From Planctomycetota bacterium (lineage in GTDB: Bacteria; Planctomycetota; Phycisphaerae; UBA1845): a stretch of 34,587 nt of DNA. Below are positions 2,987 through 30,260 of the stretch, one piece after another; position 1 is the stretch's first letter, and the number at the start of each line of letters is the position of its first letter. The stretch lies in assembly GCA_030616775.1 (NCBI GenBank), contig JAUWWQ010000048.1, positions 1 through 34,587 of the forward strand, in the 5' to 3' direction. Made by a program: the position numbers and the translations under genes. Below the pieces are notes generated by a model, which was given only the letters and a program-made list of their open reading frames with translations, was not told the origin of the DNA and did no database searches.

Positions 2987-3282
2987 ACCTGTTCCCTTCG
3001 CTCCAGACTTGCCAAACGCGTGGTAACGAACGCGGTAATGACAAAGCCGTCGTCTTGTGACACCTCACGATATACTACCACAAGCACCCGCCGCTGGTCC
3101 AGCGGGCGCACGGCCAATAACTCCGCGGCACTCCCCGCCAGGACCCCTTCAGGGGCGGCAATGGCCTCGAGGACATCGTCGCGAAGGCCGGCCAACTCGC
3201 AGTGCTCCTCAACAATGTGCGCCCAGCGTTCGTCGGTCAAACGAATCGGGACTCCGCGGCAAGATTGTACGGTCCTGGTCAT
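2968..3282 (-). CDS. PBECR/RelE-like putative nuclease toxin
   Basis: A 104-residue protein: an N-terminal beta strand, then RLTDERWAHIVEEHCEL, VLEAIAAPEGVLAGSAAELL, and LVVVYREVSQDDGFVITAFV. This layout (ERW-x-HI-x3-H, P-x-x-V-x-x-G, VVYRE...DGFVITAF) fits the PBECR/RelE-like small nuclease families that pair with DUF2283. The two His of HIVEEH and the Arg/Glu of VYRE are candidate catalytic residues. The ATG overlaps the TGA of the restriction enzyme (ATGA), so it is coupled to that gene. Toxicity is not shown; the alternative is an uncharacterised regulator of the enzyme. Confidence 0.68.
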   Translation of the reverse strand: MTRTVQSCRGVPIRLTDERWAHIVEEHCELAGLRDDVLEAIAAPEGVLAGSAAELLAVRPLDQRRVLVVVYREVSQDDGFVITAFVTTRLASLERREQVWPRKS

Positions 3283-6200
3283 CGTTGCGTTGCCTCCTCC
3301 ACGATGCGGATTTCGTCGTCGGTCAGGGCGTAGAGCTCGTATACAAGCTGGTCGATCTGCCGATCTGTGACCTCGATCTGCCGCCCAATGGCCGTCTTGT
3401 CCGTCGGCGTCCGGGCTGCATCAAGCTCCTTGTGAAGCGACAACATGCGCTCCACAAGCTCAACCATCCGATCGTGCCGGGACTTGTCCCCGCGGTCATT
3501 AAAGTTCACTCGACGAATGGGAAGCTGCTCGACATACTGAGTAAAGTAGCGGAAGTAGTCGCCTCGTAGCGTCGTGCTGACCCTCTTCAGGAAAAAATCG
3601 AGCGTCTTACTGTTAAGCAAACCAAGAATGTACTTCGGAGATTCGCCGGTGCTCGCTTTGAGCGTGATCCCGTAGCCACTGGTAAACGCATATACACCCG
3701 ACCCATCAAGGGCAAAGGATGCTCGATTAGCTATGTCTGGGACGAGAATCTTGCTTGACTCCATTATGTCAATGTTCTTCGGGTAGACGTATCCGTACCA
3801 GTTCGGACCCCGCATTCGCCCACGTTCGCGCGACTCCAAGAAACTCCTGTTTTGGCGTAGATAAGCGTATGTGTGTGGAAATTGCGCTTGGTACTCCTCT
3901 TCGGGAGTCAACCGGACCCGCTGCCCGGAGACTTCATAAGGAATAATCACTACTAAACCTGACGGCATGATTCGGAACGGTTTAATCTCGCGCCCCTTCA
4001 AGAAGAGCTTGACTGCCAAGCGCTCAAGTTCGACCGTCCGTTCGAGGCATACCGATCGTGCGGTTACAATGTCGGTTGATTCCGACACTACTTCCAGTAC
4101 GTAAACATCGTTCGCGCTCGTGCGTATTCCCTGCGCGATGCGCTCCGCTACATCCTCCAACCTCGTCGCTATCGTGCGCATTCTGGCGAAGAGTTCCGAT
4201 CCCCGACCGACATTGAAGTTCCACTCGCTCGACGTGACTTGTGCGGACCGGATCGTACCCGTGTCTGCATGGAAATCCGTGCGCCATCTCGTCAAGTCCG
4301 TTACTCGGGCAACTTGGAAGTCATCCGTTGTTTTCTTGTCCAAGAACATAAGACATGTGTACGTTGTGGCGCCGACGAAGACCTGTTGGTCGGTGAAGTG
4401 AACCACGTGGTAGATGTGGCTTCCTTGTGCGATCGACTTCCGCAGGGGCTGGCCGTACTTCGCGTTGAAGAACTTGTGTGGGAGGATCAATCCGAGTCGC
4501 CCGGTCCCATTGAGCAGTTGTAACCCACGTTCGACGAACAATACGTAAATGTCGAAGTTCCCCTTACGGGCCGCTTTGTAGCGGTGTTTGTAGTACTCAA
4601 CCTCCTGTGAATACCACTCTCTTAGGGCTTGCACGCGGATATACGGTGGATTTCCGATAACGGCGTCGAAGCCGCCGGCTTTGACGGCCTCGGGGAACTC
4701 GGCCTCCCAGTCGAAGGCGTTTATCCGGTAACGCTCCTCCTCGTCGAGCAGTGAGAGCTGCTGGTTGTCGTAAAAGTCCGGGCCGATCAGGCTGTTGCCG
4801 CACTTGATGTTGCTGCCCAGGTCGGGCAGGGCCCGCTCGTGGAAGAGGCGGAGCTGGTTCTCCAGTGTTTGCTGGTTCTCGCCTTCGAGCACCTTGAGCA
4901 GCAGTGACAGCTTAGTGACCTCGACGGCCTGGGGGTCGATGTCCACGCCGTAGATGTTGTTGAGCAGAATCCGCTTGCGCTCGGCCACCGTGAGCCGCCA
5001 GGTGGCGCCACGCAGATATGGTGCGCCCTGATCAGATCCGCGACCGTGAGGGAGCGGTTTGCCAATAGCGCCACCGGACTGCGGAACCGCTCCATCACTG
5101 TCGCGGTACTGACTGGAACTGCCCACCTGGTAGATCGGGGGGTTCTTCTTGCGGGCCCACTTCTCGGAGTCGTTCTCGGTATACCACTTGAGGTGCCAAT
5201 CGAGCAGGTATTGATAGGCCCCGAGCAGAAACGACCCGCTGCCACAGGCCGGGTCCAGAATGCGTAGGGTTTTGTCCGCTCCCTTACGGTCGCGGCTCTG
5301 ATCTTGGGCACGGGTCGGATGACGGGCGCCGGTGCCTTTGCGCTGTTCGAGCATGGGGCCGACATCGGCTGGGGTCTTGCTCTCCAGCAGCTTGCCCACG
5401 GTGTGTTTGACGATGTAGTCCACGATGTAGGACGGCGTGTAGTAGACGCCGCCCGCTTTCTTGACCTCGGGTTTTTCTTCGATGACTGCCCGGTGCCCTT
5501 CGGTCAATCGGATGACCTTGCCGAGAAACTGCTCGTAGACATGCCCGAGAATCTCAGCCGGCAGAACGGAGAATTCGTAGGGGCACTCCGGGTAATACAG
5601 CCGTTTGATGATGTCCTTCAGGACTCTGTCGTCGATCACAAGGTCAGGGGTCAGCTCGTCGGGCTCTTCCGCCCGCCCCTTTTCAGGCTGAAAGTGGAAC
5701 AACCCGGAGTTGTAACGCTCGTCGGCCCGGTAAAACAGCTCCACAAGGCGGCGGTAGATGTTGGGGCCGTTGGGCAGGACCCGTAGCTGCTCGTAGGTCT
5801 CGACACCCCGATCCTCGCACATCCGCAGAAAGATGATCCGGTCGATCGTCCTGGTGACTGCAAAGTTCAGATCGCGCACGGACAGACCGCGATTGCGAAG
5901 GGCGATGTTGCGGGCCAGCAGCTCCCGCCACTCTTCGATCTCCTTCAAGAATTCGGCGTCGACCTCGGCCGTGCCGCGCTTGCGGCGGGTGGACTCGGCA
6001 TACTTGTCGAACGAGCCTTTGAGGATGGACTCTTTCTCGAAGATCGCGGCGATCTGGCCCCACCGCTCCGGGTACTGGTCATACGTCACGTACATGACCC
6101 GGGCTGTTGACGGTCTGTCGGTCAGCTTCGGTTTGATCCGGCAATCGTAGACCGCCAGCTCCTCGAAATCGGTCACTATCGACAAGGGCAGCTTGTTGCT

Positions 6201-6566
6201 CCAGGCGTAGCGGCGGAGCTGGTAGGCTGGGCCGGGTTCGTCCTTGACCCCTACCACCGGTTTCTTAGCCTCGACGAAGAACTTGCGCACCCCGCCGATT
6301 CGGAAGCAGTAGTCCGGGGCCTTGGTGGATCCACCGACCTTGATGGCGTCCTCGTGAATGACGTCCTTGTAGGCCTCTGCGTGGCCAGCCTTGTTGGCCA
6401 CATCCCAACCCAGGGCGGTGAAGAAGGGATCGATGAACTCACGGCGCACCTGGGTTTCCTTGTAGGCCTGTTGTTTATAGGCGTCCGCGTGCTCGTGGAA
6501 CCGCTCGACGAGCTTCAGAACAGCAGGCGGACAGGGCGCTCGTTCATTTGTTGCAGATGCGGACAT
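3279..6566 (-). CDS. Single-chain Eco57I-like restriction enzyme and adenine methylase (Type IIG)
   Basis: About 1095 residues combine nuclease, methyltransferase and target recognition. The N-terminus carries a PD-(D/E)XK-like region (DVIHEDAIKVGGSTKAPDYC, then VRKFFVEAKKP near residues 85-105). The methylase has motif I DPACGSGSFLLGAYQYLL near 440 and motif IV GNPPYIRV near 638, typical of N6-adenine enzymes. The C-terminal third resembles TaqI-like specificity domains and ends in the conserved tail ALTDDEIRIVEE. I chose the ATG at 6566, not the upstream GTG at 6596, because a -35/-10 pair lies just before it. Two stretches around residues 410-435 and 480-515 look inserted in frame and contain palindromic elements (PLPHGRGSD). 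The stop overlaps the toxin start. Confidence 0.88.
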   Translation of the reverse strand: MSASATNERAPCPPAVLKLVERFHEHADAYKQQAYKETQVRREFIDPFFTALGWDVANKAGHAEAYKDVIHEDAIKVGGSTKAPDYCFRIGGVRKFFVEAKKPVVGVKDEPGPAYQLRRYAWSNKLPLSIVTDFEELAVYDCRIKPKLTDRPSTARVMYVTYDQYPERWGQIAAIFEKESILKGSFDKYAESTRRKRGTAEVDAEFLKEIEEWRELLARNIALRNRGLSVRDLNFAVTRTIDRIIFLRMCEDRGVETYEQLRVLPNGPNIYRRLVELFYRADERYNSGLFHFQPEKGRAEEPDELTPDLVIDDRVLKDIIKRLYYPECPYEFSVLPAEILGHVYEQFLGKVIRLTEGHRAVIEEKPEVKKAGGVYYTPSYIVDYIVKHTVGKLLESKTPADVGPMLEQRKGTGARHPTRAQDQSRDRKGADKTLRILDPACGSGSFLLGAYQYLLDWHLKWYTENDSEKWARKKNPPIYQVGSSSQYRDSDGAVPQSGGAIGKPLPHGRGSDQGAPYLRGATWRLTVAERKRILLNNIYGVDIDPQAVEVTKLSLLLKVLEGENQQTLENQLRLFHERALPDLGSNIKCGNSLIGPDFYDNQQLSLLDEEERYRINAFDWEAEFPEAVKAGGFDAVIGNPPYIRVQALREWYSQEVEYYKHRYKAARKGNFDIYVLFVERGLQLLNGTGRLGLILPHKFFNAKYGQPLRKSIAQGSHIYHVVHFTDQQVFVGATTYTCLMFLDKKTTDDFQVARVTDLTRWRTDFHADTGTIRSAQVTSSEWNFNVGRGSELFARMRTIATRLEDVAERIAQGIRTSANDVYVLEVVSESTDIVTARSVCLERTVELERLAVKLFLKGREIKPFRIMPSGLVVIIPYEVSGQRVRLTPEEEYQAQFPHTYAYLRQNRSFLESRERGRMRGPNWYGYVYPKNIDIMESSKILVPDIANRASFALDGSGVYAFTSGYGITLKASTGESPKYILGLLNSKTLDFFLKRVSTTLRGDYFRYFTQYVEQLPIRRVNFNDRGDKSRHDRMVELVERMLSLHKELDAARTPTDKTAIGRQIEVTDRQIDQLVYELYALTDDEIRIVEEATQR
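5030..5112. repeat. In-frame inverted palindromic element in the restriction gene
   Basis: Two inverted copies of the core CGCTCCCTCACGGTCGCGG lie head to head: about 5038-5059 (reverse) and 5088-5107 (forward, two to three mismatches). They form a stem of about 20 bp around a 25-base loop. The reading frame of the restriction gene continues through them. The reverse copy encodes KPLPHGRGSD, a peptide I recall as recurrent in unrelated planctomycete proteins. It lies between KKNPPIYQ and WRLTVAERKRILLNNIYGVD, which related enzymes have close together. Confidence 0.7.
5274..5302. repeat. Second in-frame copy of the same palindromic element
   Basis: CGCTCCCTTACGGTCGCGG followed by CTCTGATC matches the reverse copy at about 5038-5059 but in the opposite orientation. 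In the restriction gene it encodes QDQSRDRKGAD just before motif I (LRILDPACGSG), inside a ~25-residue Arg/Gln-rich stretch that looks inserted. Confidence 0.68.
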
Positions 6567-6573
6567 GTACGTA

Positions 6574-6603
6574 AAGATACGGTAGGAGGACGCCACTCGT
6601 CAA
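6574..6603 (-). promoter_or_regulatory. Promoter of the restriction gene, leaderless type
   Basis: On the minus strand, TTGACG (6603-6598), an 18-base spacer and TATCTT (6579-6574) are followed after 7 bases by the ATG at 6566. Transcription would start at or next to the A of the ATG, so the mRNA probably has no leader. No ribosome binding site is present. Confidence 0.55.
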
Positions 6604-6742: not shown

Positions 6743-6992
6743 CGGTTGCCGGTGTCCGCTTGGGCGGACGTAAAAGGGAAGGTGGTGCAAATCCACCGTG
6801 GACCCGCCGCTGTAATCGGGGACGAACGCCACTTTATGGCCATTCGCAGATTGGCTGCGTTGGGCATGACCGCGCGGGCTAAAGCCCGCAGCCCGGTTGG
6901 GTTTTGAGTCGTGCCGCACAACGCAGCGGACTGTGGAGAAGGCGTGGTTAGTAGGATGATCCGTAAGCCAGAAAACCTGCCGGTGATCGTCG
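6743..6992 (+). ncRNA. Cobalamin riboswitch (AdoCbl-type, class I-like)
   Basis: All the conserved blocks are present in order: AAAAGGGAA (6772-6780), GGTGCAAATCC (6784-6794), GACCCGCCGCTGTAA (6801-6815), GCCACT (6828-6833), GGAGAAGGCG (6935-6944), GGATGATCC (6954-6962) and the B12 box AGCCAGAAAACCTGCC (6966-6981). The variable arm between GCCACT and GGAGAAGGCG is unusually long, about 100 bases. It has a 9-bp stem, GCTGCGTTG (6854-6862) with CAACGCAGC (6919-6927), extended by GGCATGAC with GTCGTGCC, and capped by a palindromic element. An intrinsic terminator follows at 7108 and a three-gene operon at 7207. Cobalamin binding is expected to favour termination. Confidence 0.93.
6871..6897. repeat. 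Palindromic element inside the riboswitch arm
   Basis: CGCGCGGGCTAAAGCCCGCAGCCCGG has a 7-bp GCGGGCT/AGCCCGC stem (6874-6889) and the asymmetric flanks of the elements at 14325, 20172 and 29099. It caps the long variable arm of the cobalamin riboswitch, so it was tolerated without disturbing the conserved core. Confidence 0.75.
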
Positions 6993-14135: not shown

Positions 14136-14262
14136 GTGACAGAGTGTATCTCAACTAAGCTCAGCTTTTCCAGTCTTAAGCGGCAAGAAATCGTTGCCAA
14201 TTTCGCCGGCGGGCGGCTGACCTCCGACGGTGGGGCGCTGCTTCTGCGGGAGGTCGACCACC
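14136..14262 (+). pseudogene. IS1380-family transposase, 5' remnant
   Basis: A GTG start with a strong AAGGAGG ribosome binding site opens MTECISTKLSFSSLKRQEIV, then ANFAGGRLTSDGGALLLREV. This is the hallmark N-terminus of IS1380-family DDE transposases. Only about 42 codons remain of the usual ~440. After LLLREVD the frame passes directly into an unrelated IS21 helper sequence, so the element was broken by another insertion or a deletion. Confidence 0.85.
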
Positions 14263-14530
14263 GCCAACCTGGTGACTCGATTGGAAGAGGCCCGGAAGCA
14301 CTAGAGCGATTCTCGAAATCATATGCCGAGCCGCGGGCTTCAGCCCGCGCGGAATCGTATAGCGACAGGACGCTCGCCGTCCCTGACGTACGGTATACGA
14401 AAACGGGATCTGCTCTATCAGCTCGATCGGTTCTTGGCCCAGTTGAACAAGGCCGACCTGCTGATCTGCGACGAACTGGGATACCTGTCCTTCAGCAGCA
14501 CCGGGGCCGAGGTGCGACAATCTGTGTTCA
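14262..14530 (+). pseudogene. IS21-family IstB helper ATPase, remnant
   Basis: The plus strand reads TTANLVTRLEEARKH and then a stop. About 100 bases later it continues LYQLDRFLAQLNKADLLICD and ELGYLSFSSTGAE, the Walker B/DELGY region of IstB. The two parts are adjacent in intact IstB proteins, so the interruption is a later insertion that includes a palindromic element. Walker A and the C-terminus are missing, and no istA gene is present. The piece is dead and fused to the IS1380 remnant. Confidence 0.82.
14325..14352. repeat. Palindromic element inside the IstB remnant
   Basis: GAGCCGCGGGCTTCAGCCCG followed by CGCGG has a 9-bp stem around a 2-3 base loop and is the same family as the copies at 20172 and 29099. 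It splits conserved IstB sequence, so here it is visibly an insertion. Confidence 0.75.
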
Positions 14531-14623
14531 TGCCCAATCGCGTGCGATGGCCCGAGTCCGATAGATTGCGTCAAGGAACCTGAGATCTACTCGCGTGGCC
14601 TTGCACAGCGCCGAATTCGACCC

Positions 14624-28612: not shown

Positions 28613-30226
28613 CTATTCTTGGCGCCAGACGGTGCCGTCGGGGCGGTCTTCGAGGGTGATATTATGCCCAGCCAGCAGGTCGCGGATCATGTCGGATGAC
28701 TCGAAGTCCTTTTTCTTGCGCAGATGCTGGCGAACTTTGATGAGGACTTCCATGGCCTTTTCGCCGAGGCCGTCACCCGCGACAGCTTTCTTCTTGGGCG
28801 GGTCTATGAACAGCCCGATTAACCGCGCCACAGCGATCAGGTGGACAGTGGCGGTGAGGGCGTCCCGAACCGAAGTTGGGGGGCGGGAGTCCGCGCGGGC
28901 TCCCGATAAATCGGGATTCCATTCCGCACGCGGCTCAGCGCTGTCTAGTTTTTCCTGCTCGATGAAGCGGTTGACCGTACCGGCAAAATCAAAGAGCGCG
29001 GCAATGGCGCCGGCTGTGTTGAAGTCGTCGTCCATGGCCTGCTTGAATCGGGCGAGGAGACCTTCGCAAGCCACGGCGAGGGATTCGGATTGGATCTCCG
29101 CGCGGGCTAAAGCCCGCGGCTCGGTGAGACTCTCTGATTTCATGGCATCGCGGGCTAAAGCCCGCGGTTCGGTGAGCGTGGACGCTTTCTCATACGGCGA
29201 AGTACCGCAGATGCGCTCGACGCGCTCGAAAAGGCGATAGAAGGTGTCAAGACCCTTGCGCTTGCTCTCGATCTCCTCCTCGGAATACTCGATTGGCCGG
29301 CGGTAGTGGGTACTGAGCACGAAGAAGCGGATCAGCTCGCCGGTGTATTCATCGAGTAGGTTGTGCAGCGTCATCTTGGCAAGGGCTGCCTGCATCTCCG
29401 CGCTGGCGTCGGACTTCGAGATCTTCTTGGTGTTGAGGCGTGTCAGCCCGTTGTGCATCCAGACCTTGGCGAAGGGTTTCCCGGTGGCGGCTTCGGACTG
29501 GGCAATCTCGTTTTCGTGGTGAGGAAAGACCAGATCCATCCCTCCGCCGTGGATATCGAAGGTTTCCCCCAGGTACCGCATAGCCATGACGGAGCATTCG
29601 ATATGCCAGCCGGGTCGGCCCTTGCCCCAGGGTGAGTCAAACTTAACCTCGTCGGGTTCATCCGGCTTGCTGGCTTTCCACACTGCAAAGTCGCCGGGAT
29701 TTCGCTTTCCCCCGCTCTGAAGATCGCGCTGACCGGCTTGCTCCTCCGGGCGGCGGTTGGAGAGCTTGCCGTAACCAGGGTGTTTAGCGACGTCAAAGTA
29801 GACATCGCCATTGGATTGGTAAGCAACGCCGTGCTCGATCAAGCGCTCGACGATCGAAATGATGTCACCGATGTGCTCCGAGGCCTTGGGCAAGATGTCA
29901 ATGCTATCGACGTGGAGCTTGGCCATGGCGTCGAGGTAATCCTTCGTGACCCGGTGGGCCAGCTCGGAGGTGGTGGTGTTCTGTCTGGCGGCTTCGTCGA
30001 TGAGCTTGTCGTCCACGTCGGTGATGTTGACGACCCAGGTCACGTCGAAGCCGCTGTAAACCAGATAGCGTTTAATGGCGTCGAAGATAATCGGGCCGAC
30101 GGCGTGGCCGATGTGGCTGGGCTTGTAGACGGTCGGCCCGCACACATAGATCCCGACCTTGCCGGGCGTTAATGGTTGAAAGGGTTCCTTCTCGCGTGTC
30201 AGAGTGTTGTAGACGACCAGGCCCAT
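28613..30226 (-). CDS. cysS: Cysteinyl-tRNA synthetase, with in-frame palindromic insertions
   Basis: A 537-residue CysRS, about 75 longer than E. coli CysS (461). It has zinc/ATP-site motifs VCGPTVYKPSHIGHAVGP (HIGH at 38-41), WVVNITDVDDKLIDEA, RPGWHIECSVMA, GGGMDLVFPHHENEIAQSEA, and KISKS near 268 in place of KMSKS. The ATG at 30226 has GAGGA upstream and starts at conserved sequence. The linker (~345-450) between the catalytic core and the anticodon-side helices contains three palindromic elements read in frame: residues ~351-360, ~367-377 and ~431-446, giving the duplicated peptide LTEPRALAR. The catalytic motifs are intact, so the enzyme is probably functional. It follows ispF with a gap of 92 bases. 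Confidence 0.95.
   Translation of the reverse strand: MGLVVYNTLTREKEPFQPLTPGKVGIYVCGPTVYKPSHIGHAVGPIIFDAIKRYLVYSGFDVTWVVNITDVDDKLIDEAARQNTTTSELAHRVTKDYLDAMAKLHVDSIDILPKASEHIGDIISIVERLIEHGVAYQSNGDVYFDVAKHPGYGKLSNRRPEEQAGQRDLQSGGKRNPGDFAVWKASKPDEPDEVKFDSPWGKGRPGWHIECSVMAMRYLGETFDIHGGGMDLVFPHHENEIAQSEAATGKPFAKVWMHNGLTRLNTKKISKSDASAEMQAALAKMTLHNLLDEYTGELIRFFVLSTHYRRPIEYSEEEIESKRKGLDTFYRLFERVERICGTSPYEKASTLTEPRALARDAMKSESLTEPRALARAEIQSESLAVACEGLLARFKQAMDDDFNTAGAIAALFDFAGTVNRFIEQEKLDSAEPRAEWNPDLSGARADSRPPTSVRDALTATVHLIAVARLIGLFIDPPKKKAVAGDGLGEKAMEVLIKVRQHLRKKKDFESSDMIRDLLAGHNITLEDRPDGTVWRQE
28891..28936. repeat. Palindromic element in cysS, long-stem variant
   Basis: It keeps the family ends (CCGCGCGGGCT at 28891 and GCGGCTCA at 28930) but has an inner hairpin CCCGATAAATCGGG. 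It encodes roughly AEPRAEWNPDLSGARAD in cysS. Confidence 0.6.
29099..29129. repeat. Palindromic element in cysS, copy 2
   Basis: CGCGCGGGCTAAAGCCCGCG followed by GCTCGGTGAG, an 8-bp stem. On the cysS coding strand it encodes LTEPRALARA. Confidence 0.8.
29149..29176. repeat. Palindromic element in cysS, copy 1
   Basis: CGCGGGCTAAAGCCCGCGGT followed by TCGGTGAG, nearly identical to the copy 20 bases away at 29099-29129. It encodes LTEPRALARD. The pair looks like a tandem duplication or a double insertion. Confidence 0.8.
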
Positions 30227-30260
30227 CACTAATGATCCTCGAAAACACAATAGTAGCAGG

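Follow-up and report, generated by a model that had tools for sequence, protein, structure and literature searches.

The three palindromic sequences lying within the coding region of cysS, the gene of the cysteine–tRNA ligase (CysRS), very probably belong to the non-autonomous, REP-like type of hairpin that class 3 Y1 (HUH, single-strand) transposases mobilise, and have landed in two linkers of the enzyme, where they are translated as short extra loops. The gene is located in a 34,587-nucleotide stretch of DNA of a Planctomycetota bacterium (contig JAUWWQ010000048.1), referred to below as the window. A wider reading, which we favour with moderate confidence, is that Planctomycetes carry translation-transparent transposons: Y1 (HUH) genes bounded by stop-free hairpins and placed in frame in housekeeping enzymes, usually without a nearby start codon, whose products would exist solely as an internal domain of the host enzyme and which would still be moving between enzymes and genomes. 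The CysRS hairpins would then be the non-autonomous offspring of such units, and three transposase clades would share this lifestyle, two of them in the same loop of PurH. We infer the present-day mobility and the translation of both the hairpins and the embedded transposases.

The cysS reading frame matches the NCBIfam model TIGR00435 (cysS) with 460 bits against a cut-off of 340 and Pfam tRNA-synt_1e with 371 bits; the class I catalytic domain covers residues 24–330 and DALR_2 residues 401–434. The ATG of the MGLVVYNT sequence is 7 codons inside the TTG start. The preliminary description of this DNA held that palindromes are read in frame in the linker of the enzyme, and this was borne out: the repeats are of a mobile type, and two linkers are occupied (Table 1). 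The three palindromes had been taken for copies of one repeat, which is correct for the two A-type hairpins of 27 nt; the third, of 48 nt, is a core variant (type B) with only the ends, GAGCCGCG...CGCGCGG, in common with type A, the TTYA loop being replaced by a 25-nt second palindrome, GGAATGGAATCCCGATTTATCGGGA. The segments of CysRS encoded by the hairpins are EPRALARA and EPRAEWNPDLSGARAD. The two A copies are separated by 48 nt from start to start, with a gap of 21 nt, and since both sit in a 48-nt imperfect tandem repeat, one of them may be a tandem copy, so that tandem copying instead of two separate insertions is possible.

Table 1. Position of cysS, of the hairpins and of related repeats and peptides in the window
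Feature	Position	Strand	Description
cysS, cysteine--tRNA ligase	28613..30250	(-)	545 aa counted from TTG at 30250
A-type hairpin, degenerate 3' end (CCGAACCGCGGGCTTTAGCCCGCGATG)	29146..29172	(-)	read as TEPRALARD, within TLTEPRALARD
A-type hairpin, exact consensus (CCGAGCCGCGGGCTTTAGCCCGCGCGG)	29098..29124	(-)	read as TEPRALARA, within SLTEPRALARA
B-type hairpin, A ends and inner palindrome GGAATGGAATCCCGATTTATCGGGA	28891..28938	(-)	read as AEPRAEWNPDLSGARA, within SAEPRAEWNPDLSGARADS
48-nt imperfect tandem repeat, 73% identity	29074..29169	(-)	contains both cysS A hairpins
A-type hairpin, exact consensus	14326..14352	(+)	in ~110-bp dispersed repeat, adjoins IS1380-like transposase fragment
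A-type hairpin, two mismatches	6870..6896	(-)	probably intergenic
Peptide QSRDRKGAD	5277..5297	(-)	in frame in R-M type ORF 3279-6596 (-)
Peptide PLPHGRGSD	5034..5057	(-)	in frame in R-M type ORF 3279-6596 (-)

When CysRS sequences from the family and order of the window organism were aligned, the hairpin-encoded residues proved to be missing in most relatives, whose linkers are shorter, as the preliminary description had led us to expect. The first linker comprises 39 residues in the window versus ~20–23 in element-free near relatives, and the second site, 10 residues long in almost all relatives, has 27 residues in the window (type B). The gene had been considered single-copy, and as an intact gene it is; the same genome, however, has at G000:C16:3234-3718 a second, broken version of the 3' half of cysS, interrupted by a stop and a frameshift. 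In this broken copy an A hairpin is found at the site where the intact gene has B, and the site is 20 residues long. The net gain at the second site is 51 nt for B and 30 nt for A, both divisible by three. A similar swap is seen in gatB, with A in the window's genome and B in the same-genus genome G002. The search for a near-identical empty cysS site that could fix the insertion ends or a target-site duplication returned none, the cysS of G002 having a run of N. Two other genomes (G029 and G011) have EPRASARA insertions of their own in the same first linker, independent of those in the window, and in three further ones (G015, G030 and G034) the first linker contains other peptides, SRDREGA, PPFQGGI and PLPPRERGR, that look REP-encoded. 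In the AlphaFold2 model of the window CysRS (33 sequences, overall pLDDT 87) the two inserts have pLDDT values of ~48–69 and are placed between helices.

The 4.45-Mb genome contains the 18-nt core of the A element 64 times and the 25-nt element, GAGCCGCRGGCTTYAGCCYGCGCGG, in 149 copies with at most one mismatch; the reversed controls gave 0 in both cases, which excludes a chance origin of the palindromes. The element is present in 33 of the 60 genomes of the relatives set, in up to 250 copies. A sample of 372 kb of the window's genome, taken around exact copies, contains 68 A or B elements, 19 of which are within ORFs of at least 400 aa. The hosts identified by Pfam (the scan left out one, a 523-aa ORF in locus L134) are GatB, UvrA, an HD-domain phosphohydrolase, an M56 peptidase, a TPR protein, a BatA-type protein, a YfbK-type vWA protein and a PMT-type glycosyltransferase, and several inserts fall within Pfam domains, e.g., GatB_Yqey, HD and YfbK_C. 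The search for the peptide in unrelated proteins, which the preliminary description had proposed as a check, thus found the same peptide, for example in GatB and UvrA. The UvrA hosts are an ORF of 679 aa with an element and one of 1778 aa (L135, 8646-13979 (+)) with five A elements, three of them consecutive.

In the long ORFs the A and B copies use all four stop-free frames, which yield EPRA(S/L)ARA, AAGFSPRG, PRGLKPAA and ARA(E/K)ARGS. This use of four frames with unrelated products favours spread at the DNA level over selection for a single peptide. It is quite unlikely that EPRA-type loops are kept by selection in the linkers of CysRS and similar proteins, for instance for solubility or for binding of tRNA or a partner, the DNA palindrome being incidental. 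The independent EPRASARA insertions in the linker of G029 and G011 do show that the site is reused, but the same DNA is read as EPRASARA, AAGFSPRG, PRGLKPAA or ARAEARGS, and it is the DNA hairpin that is conserved rather than any single one of these peptides. Moreover, the CysRS loops are of low confidence in an otherwise confident model, and the hairpin linkers around embedded transposases (see below) are relaxed, with dN/dS of 0.45–0.54.

All three cysS hairpins fold better than shuffled sequences when considered as single strands with DNA parameters (z = -2.6, -4.4 and -2.0). The stem-loops so formed, together with the known role of REPs as RNA stabilisers, would suit a function of the hairpins in the cysS mRNA, such as translation pausing or stability, with the in-frame reading merely tolerated; the hairpins, however, are in the middle of the gene and not at its 3' end, and the cysS genes of most relatives do without them, so we consider a function of this kind very improbable.

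The 5' foot of the A and B elements is CnGA in 61 of the 68 sampled copies (CCGA or CTGA in 60, GTAG in none), C at position -2, which was not imposed by the search, is present in 64, and the 3' end has no fixed tetranucleotide after it. In some relatives the first base of the A-element foot is A. High-copy CnGA-footed hairpins were described by Quentin et al. (2018) as surrounding rare class 3 Y1 transposases of ~178 aa, with HxH and Y----Q motifs, in Planctomycetes, Acidobacteria and Proteobacteria (PMC6006769). Our elements likewise are imperfect-palindrome hairpins with a high genome copy number and a CnGA foot, and in relatives of the window organism inverted A hairpins bracket Y1 transposases of a group that we designate clade 1, with spans of 653, 663 or 666 nt, in PurH in five genomes and in ValS in two. 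The clade-1 profile matches the solved IS200/IS605-type transposases 2f4f, 2xm3 and 2vhg, and the alignment of the embedded transposases shows YV..Q, in agreement with Y----Q. Because of the CnGA foot and the inverted-end placement around Y1 (HUH) transposase genes, we assign the A and B hairpins to the class 3 REP-like elements (PMC6006769), the partner being likened to theirs via the published description. The points of difference are that here the gene lies within the reading frame of housekeeping enzymes, mostly with no ATG of its own, and that the hairpins are in frame in CysRS, GatB and UvrA. The window's own genome gave 8 Y1 transposase hits, none of them flanked by A hairpins; the matching transposase may have been lost, may act in trans or may have been missed by the assembly. 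The number of A copies per genome shows no correspondence with the presence of clade-1 transposases.

REPINs are mainly extragenic. They resemble our elements in their inverted pairs of REPs and in having a Y1 transposase (RAYT) as the partner (Bertels and Rainey 2011, PMC3116915); our literature searches turned up no RAYT embedded within a host ORF. Short intragenic elements wholly within ORFs and in frame, including those of tRNA synthetases and uvrA, with double insertions and dimers, are known from the GTAG/CGTC REPs of Di Nocera et al. (2013), for which the accessible portion of the article reports no embedded transposase (PMC3733652). By their terminal tetranucleotide the A and B elements are neither GTAG nor CGTC REPs, their foot being CnGA. 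The preliminary description also drew a parallel with Rickettsia palindromic elements (RPEs). The likeness of effect stands: in the portions of the RPE literature available to us (Ogata et al. 2000 and later, reviewed in PMC2229807) these are palindromic repeats, known since 2000, that are inserted in frame into the genes for conserved proteins and add peptides to them. The family is another and can be identified, namely the CnGA-foot class 3 hairpins; RPEs are Rickettsia-specific, measure 105–146 bp and have no transposase named for them in those portions, whereas the elements here are of 27 or 48 nt, planctomycete and have a transposase partner, and length and host set them apart from RPEs. 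In-frame intragenic REPs are therefore already known, and the in-frame embedded transposase is apparently unreported: in the open-licence PMC text, the part that was searchable, we found no report of a transposase in frame inside housekeeping enzymes, and the search there on the recurring peptides themselves likewise returned nothing.

The search for clade-1 transposases covered 114 genomes of the order, and the top hits were nearly all in open frames of 424–1561 aa. In total, the relatives contain 39 distinct embedded Y1/RAYT copies of three clades, in frame and with host sequence on either side. The hosts are PurH (7 clade-1 and 14 clade-3 copies), AlaS (12 clade-2 copies), ValS (3 clade-1 copies and 1 of clade 2), LeuS (1 copy) and an MmeI-type R-M enzyme (1 copy); a MutS case (L250) with an ambiguous host start was left out of the count. 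Two of the AlaS copies occupy different sites in one 1686-aa protein (G048, L236 1279-6336 (-)). Pfam Y1_Tnp scores above its cut-off within PurH, LeuS, AlaS and the R-M enzyme, as does NCBIfam REP_Tyr_transpos within the PurH of G001, a member of the window's own genus, and the HxH motif is intact in 38 of the 39 copies. The flanking peptides tend to be of clade-specific families: EPRASARA/ARAEARGS, SRDREGA/PLPHGRGS or GTGFQPV/HRLKTGAT. An ATG within 20 codons upstream is found in 3 of the 39 embedded copies versus 10 of 13 stand-alone ones (Fisher p = 4e-6), a value that is only indicative because the embedded set was in part picked via long frames of PurH, and independence does not hold among related copies. 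Outside the order the clade-2 relatives are mostly stand-alone; embedded copies occur there in the single-contig genomes G404 (in an R-M type methylase) and G481 (in ValS). The structure model of a PurH with its transposase is of moderate quality (pLDDT 71, pTM 0.44) and hints that the flanks of the transposase may be disordered.

The length of the PurH loop is bimodal, 15–29 or 236–545 residues, and within the window's genus the insert is present in the loop of G001 and lacking from those of G000 (the window's genome) and G002. On a PurH tree of 42 tips, many nodes of which are weakly supported, the state of the loop changed at least 15 times versus a mean of 16.8 for shuffled labels; with a number of changes near the shuffled-label level, gains and losses of the insert would be frequent. 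The same loop is used by two different transposase clades. The longest loop, of 545 residues in the PurH of G076 (L227), has tandem peptide arrays of the SAKLRFAPPASPNDS and AELRAGCEAELRATESG types flanking the transposase on both sides. In the two pairs tested, the dN/dS values were 0.13 and 0.20 for the embedded transposase, 0.11 and 0.13 for the C-terminal part of PurH, and 0.54 and 0.45 for the hairpin linkers, respectively, which indicates purifying selection on the embedded transposase and relaxation in the linkers. Although most genomes here are probably metagenome assemblies, it is scarcely credible that assembly or binning misjoined the repeats into cysS and the transposases into enzymes, given that dozens of independent genomes keep the frame across the two junctions, that the element spans are nearly constant, that two clades share the PurH site and that embedded transposases are found in the single-contig, 96–100% complete genomes G042, G046, G404 and G481.

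The mechanism that we propose for these hairpins is as follows. The class 3 transposase would recognise the hairpin and its foot in single-stranded DNA and insert hairpins, or the whole bounded gene, elsewhere. Units that keep the frame and are stop-free in four of the six frames may be tolerated in linkers, other insertions being purged, so that survival would be limited to insertions that land in frame in conserved genes, in loops that tolerate them. The reading frame of the host would then supply translation and guard against frameshifts and stops in the insert. The autonomous unit has this property on a larger scale: it comprises ~650–670 nt, with a left hairpin, a transposase mostly lacking an ATG of its own and a right hairpin, and is inserted in frame in housekeeping enzymes, host ribosomes probably making the transposase as an internal domain. 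The CysRS elements would represent the short, non-autonomous form of these in-frame elements.

As a rule, selfish DNA either stays out of genes or disrupts them. The transposase and hairpins described here appear to coexist with catalytic enzymes by virtue of being translatable, so that their loss through a frameshift or a stop would damage the host. The situation resembles that of inteins with homing endonucleases, which are selfish enzyme domains in frame in conserved host enzymes at recurrent sites, without evidence of splicing in our case: the flanks are hairpin-encoded linkers, self-removal is not indicated, and no intein/Hint domain was detected by Pfam (E <= 1e-5) in the seven embedded-transposase hosts scanned, by which an intein identity was rejected. 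In-frame elements may give bacteria a way of acquiring new loops and domains in their proteins, and they would explain the peptide motifs EPRASARA, SRDREGA, PLPHGRGS and GTGFQPV that recur in these genomes. How a housekeeping enzyme works with a nuclease-like domain of 170 residues in the middle of its chain becomes testable. There is also a warning here for annotation, as length filters would drop such fusion-like proteins as errors; unexpectedly long proteins were indeed dropped by Quentin et al. (2018) as gene fusions or annotation errors (PMC6006769).

The window contains further elements of these kinds (Table 1). In relatives, peptides of the same families as the two in the R-M type ORF are found on the flanks of clade-2 transposases in AlaS and ValS. 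At 14136-14564 an N-terminal fragment of an IS1380-like transposase runs into a ~110-bp dispersed repeat with the A hairpin in its middle, and this repeat has two further copies in the genome, at ~12650 and ~15090 of L130. The search for an empty site for this A copy returned the filled window locus only, and the copy gives no exact insertion end because the shared flanks are the dispersed repeat itself. Finally, a 146-nt repeat is present in three copies, at 1206-1351, 2561-2706 and 3267-3412; the last copy forms the 3' terminus of the R-M type ORF, and the other two resemble stray copies of it.
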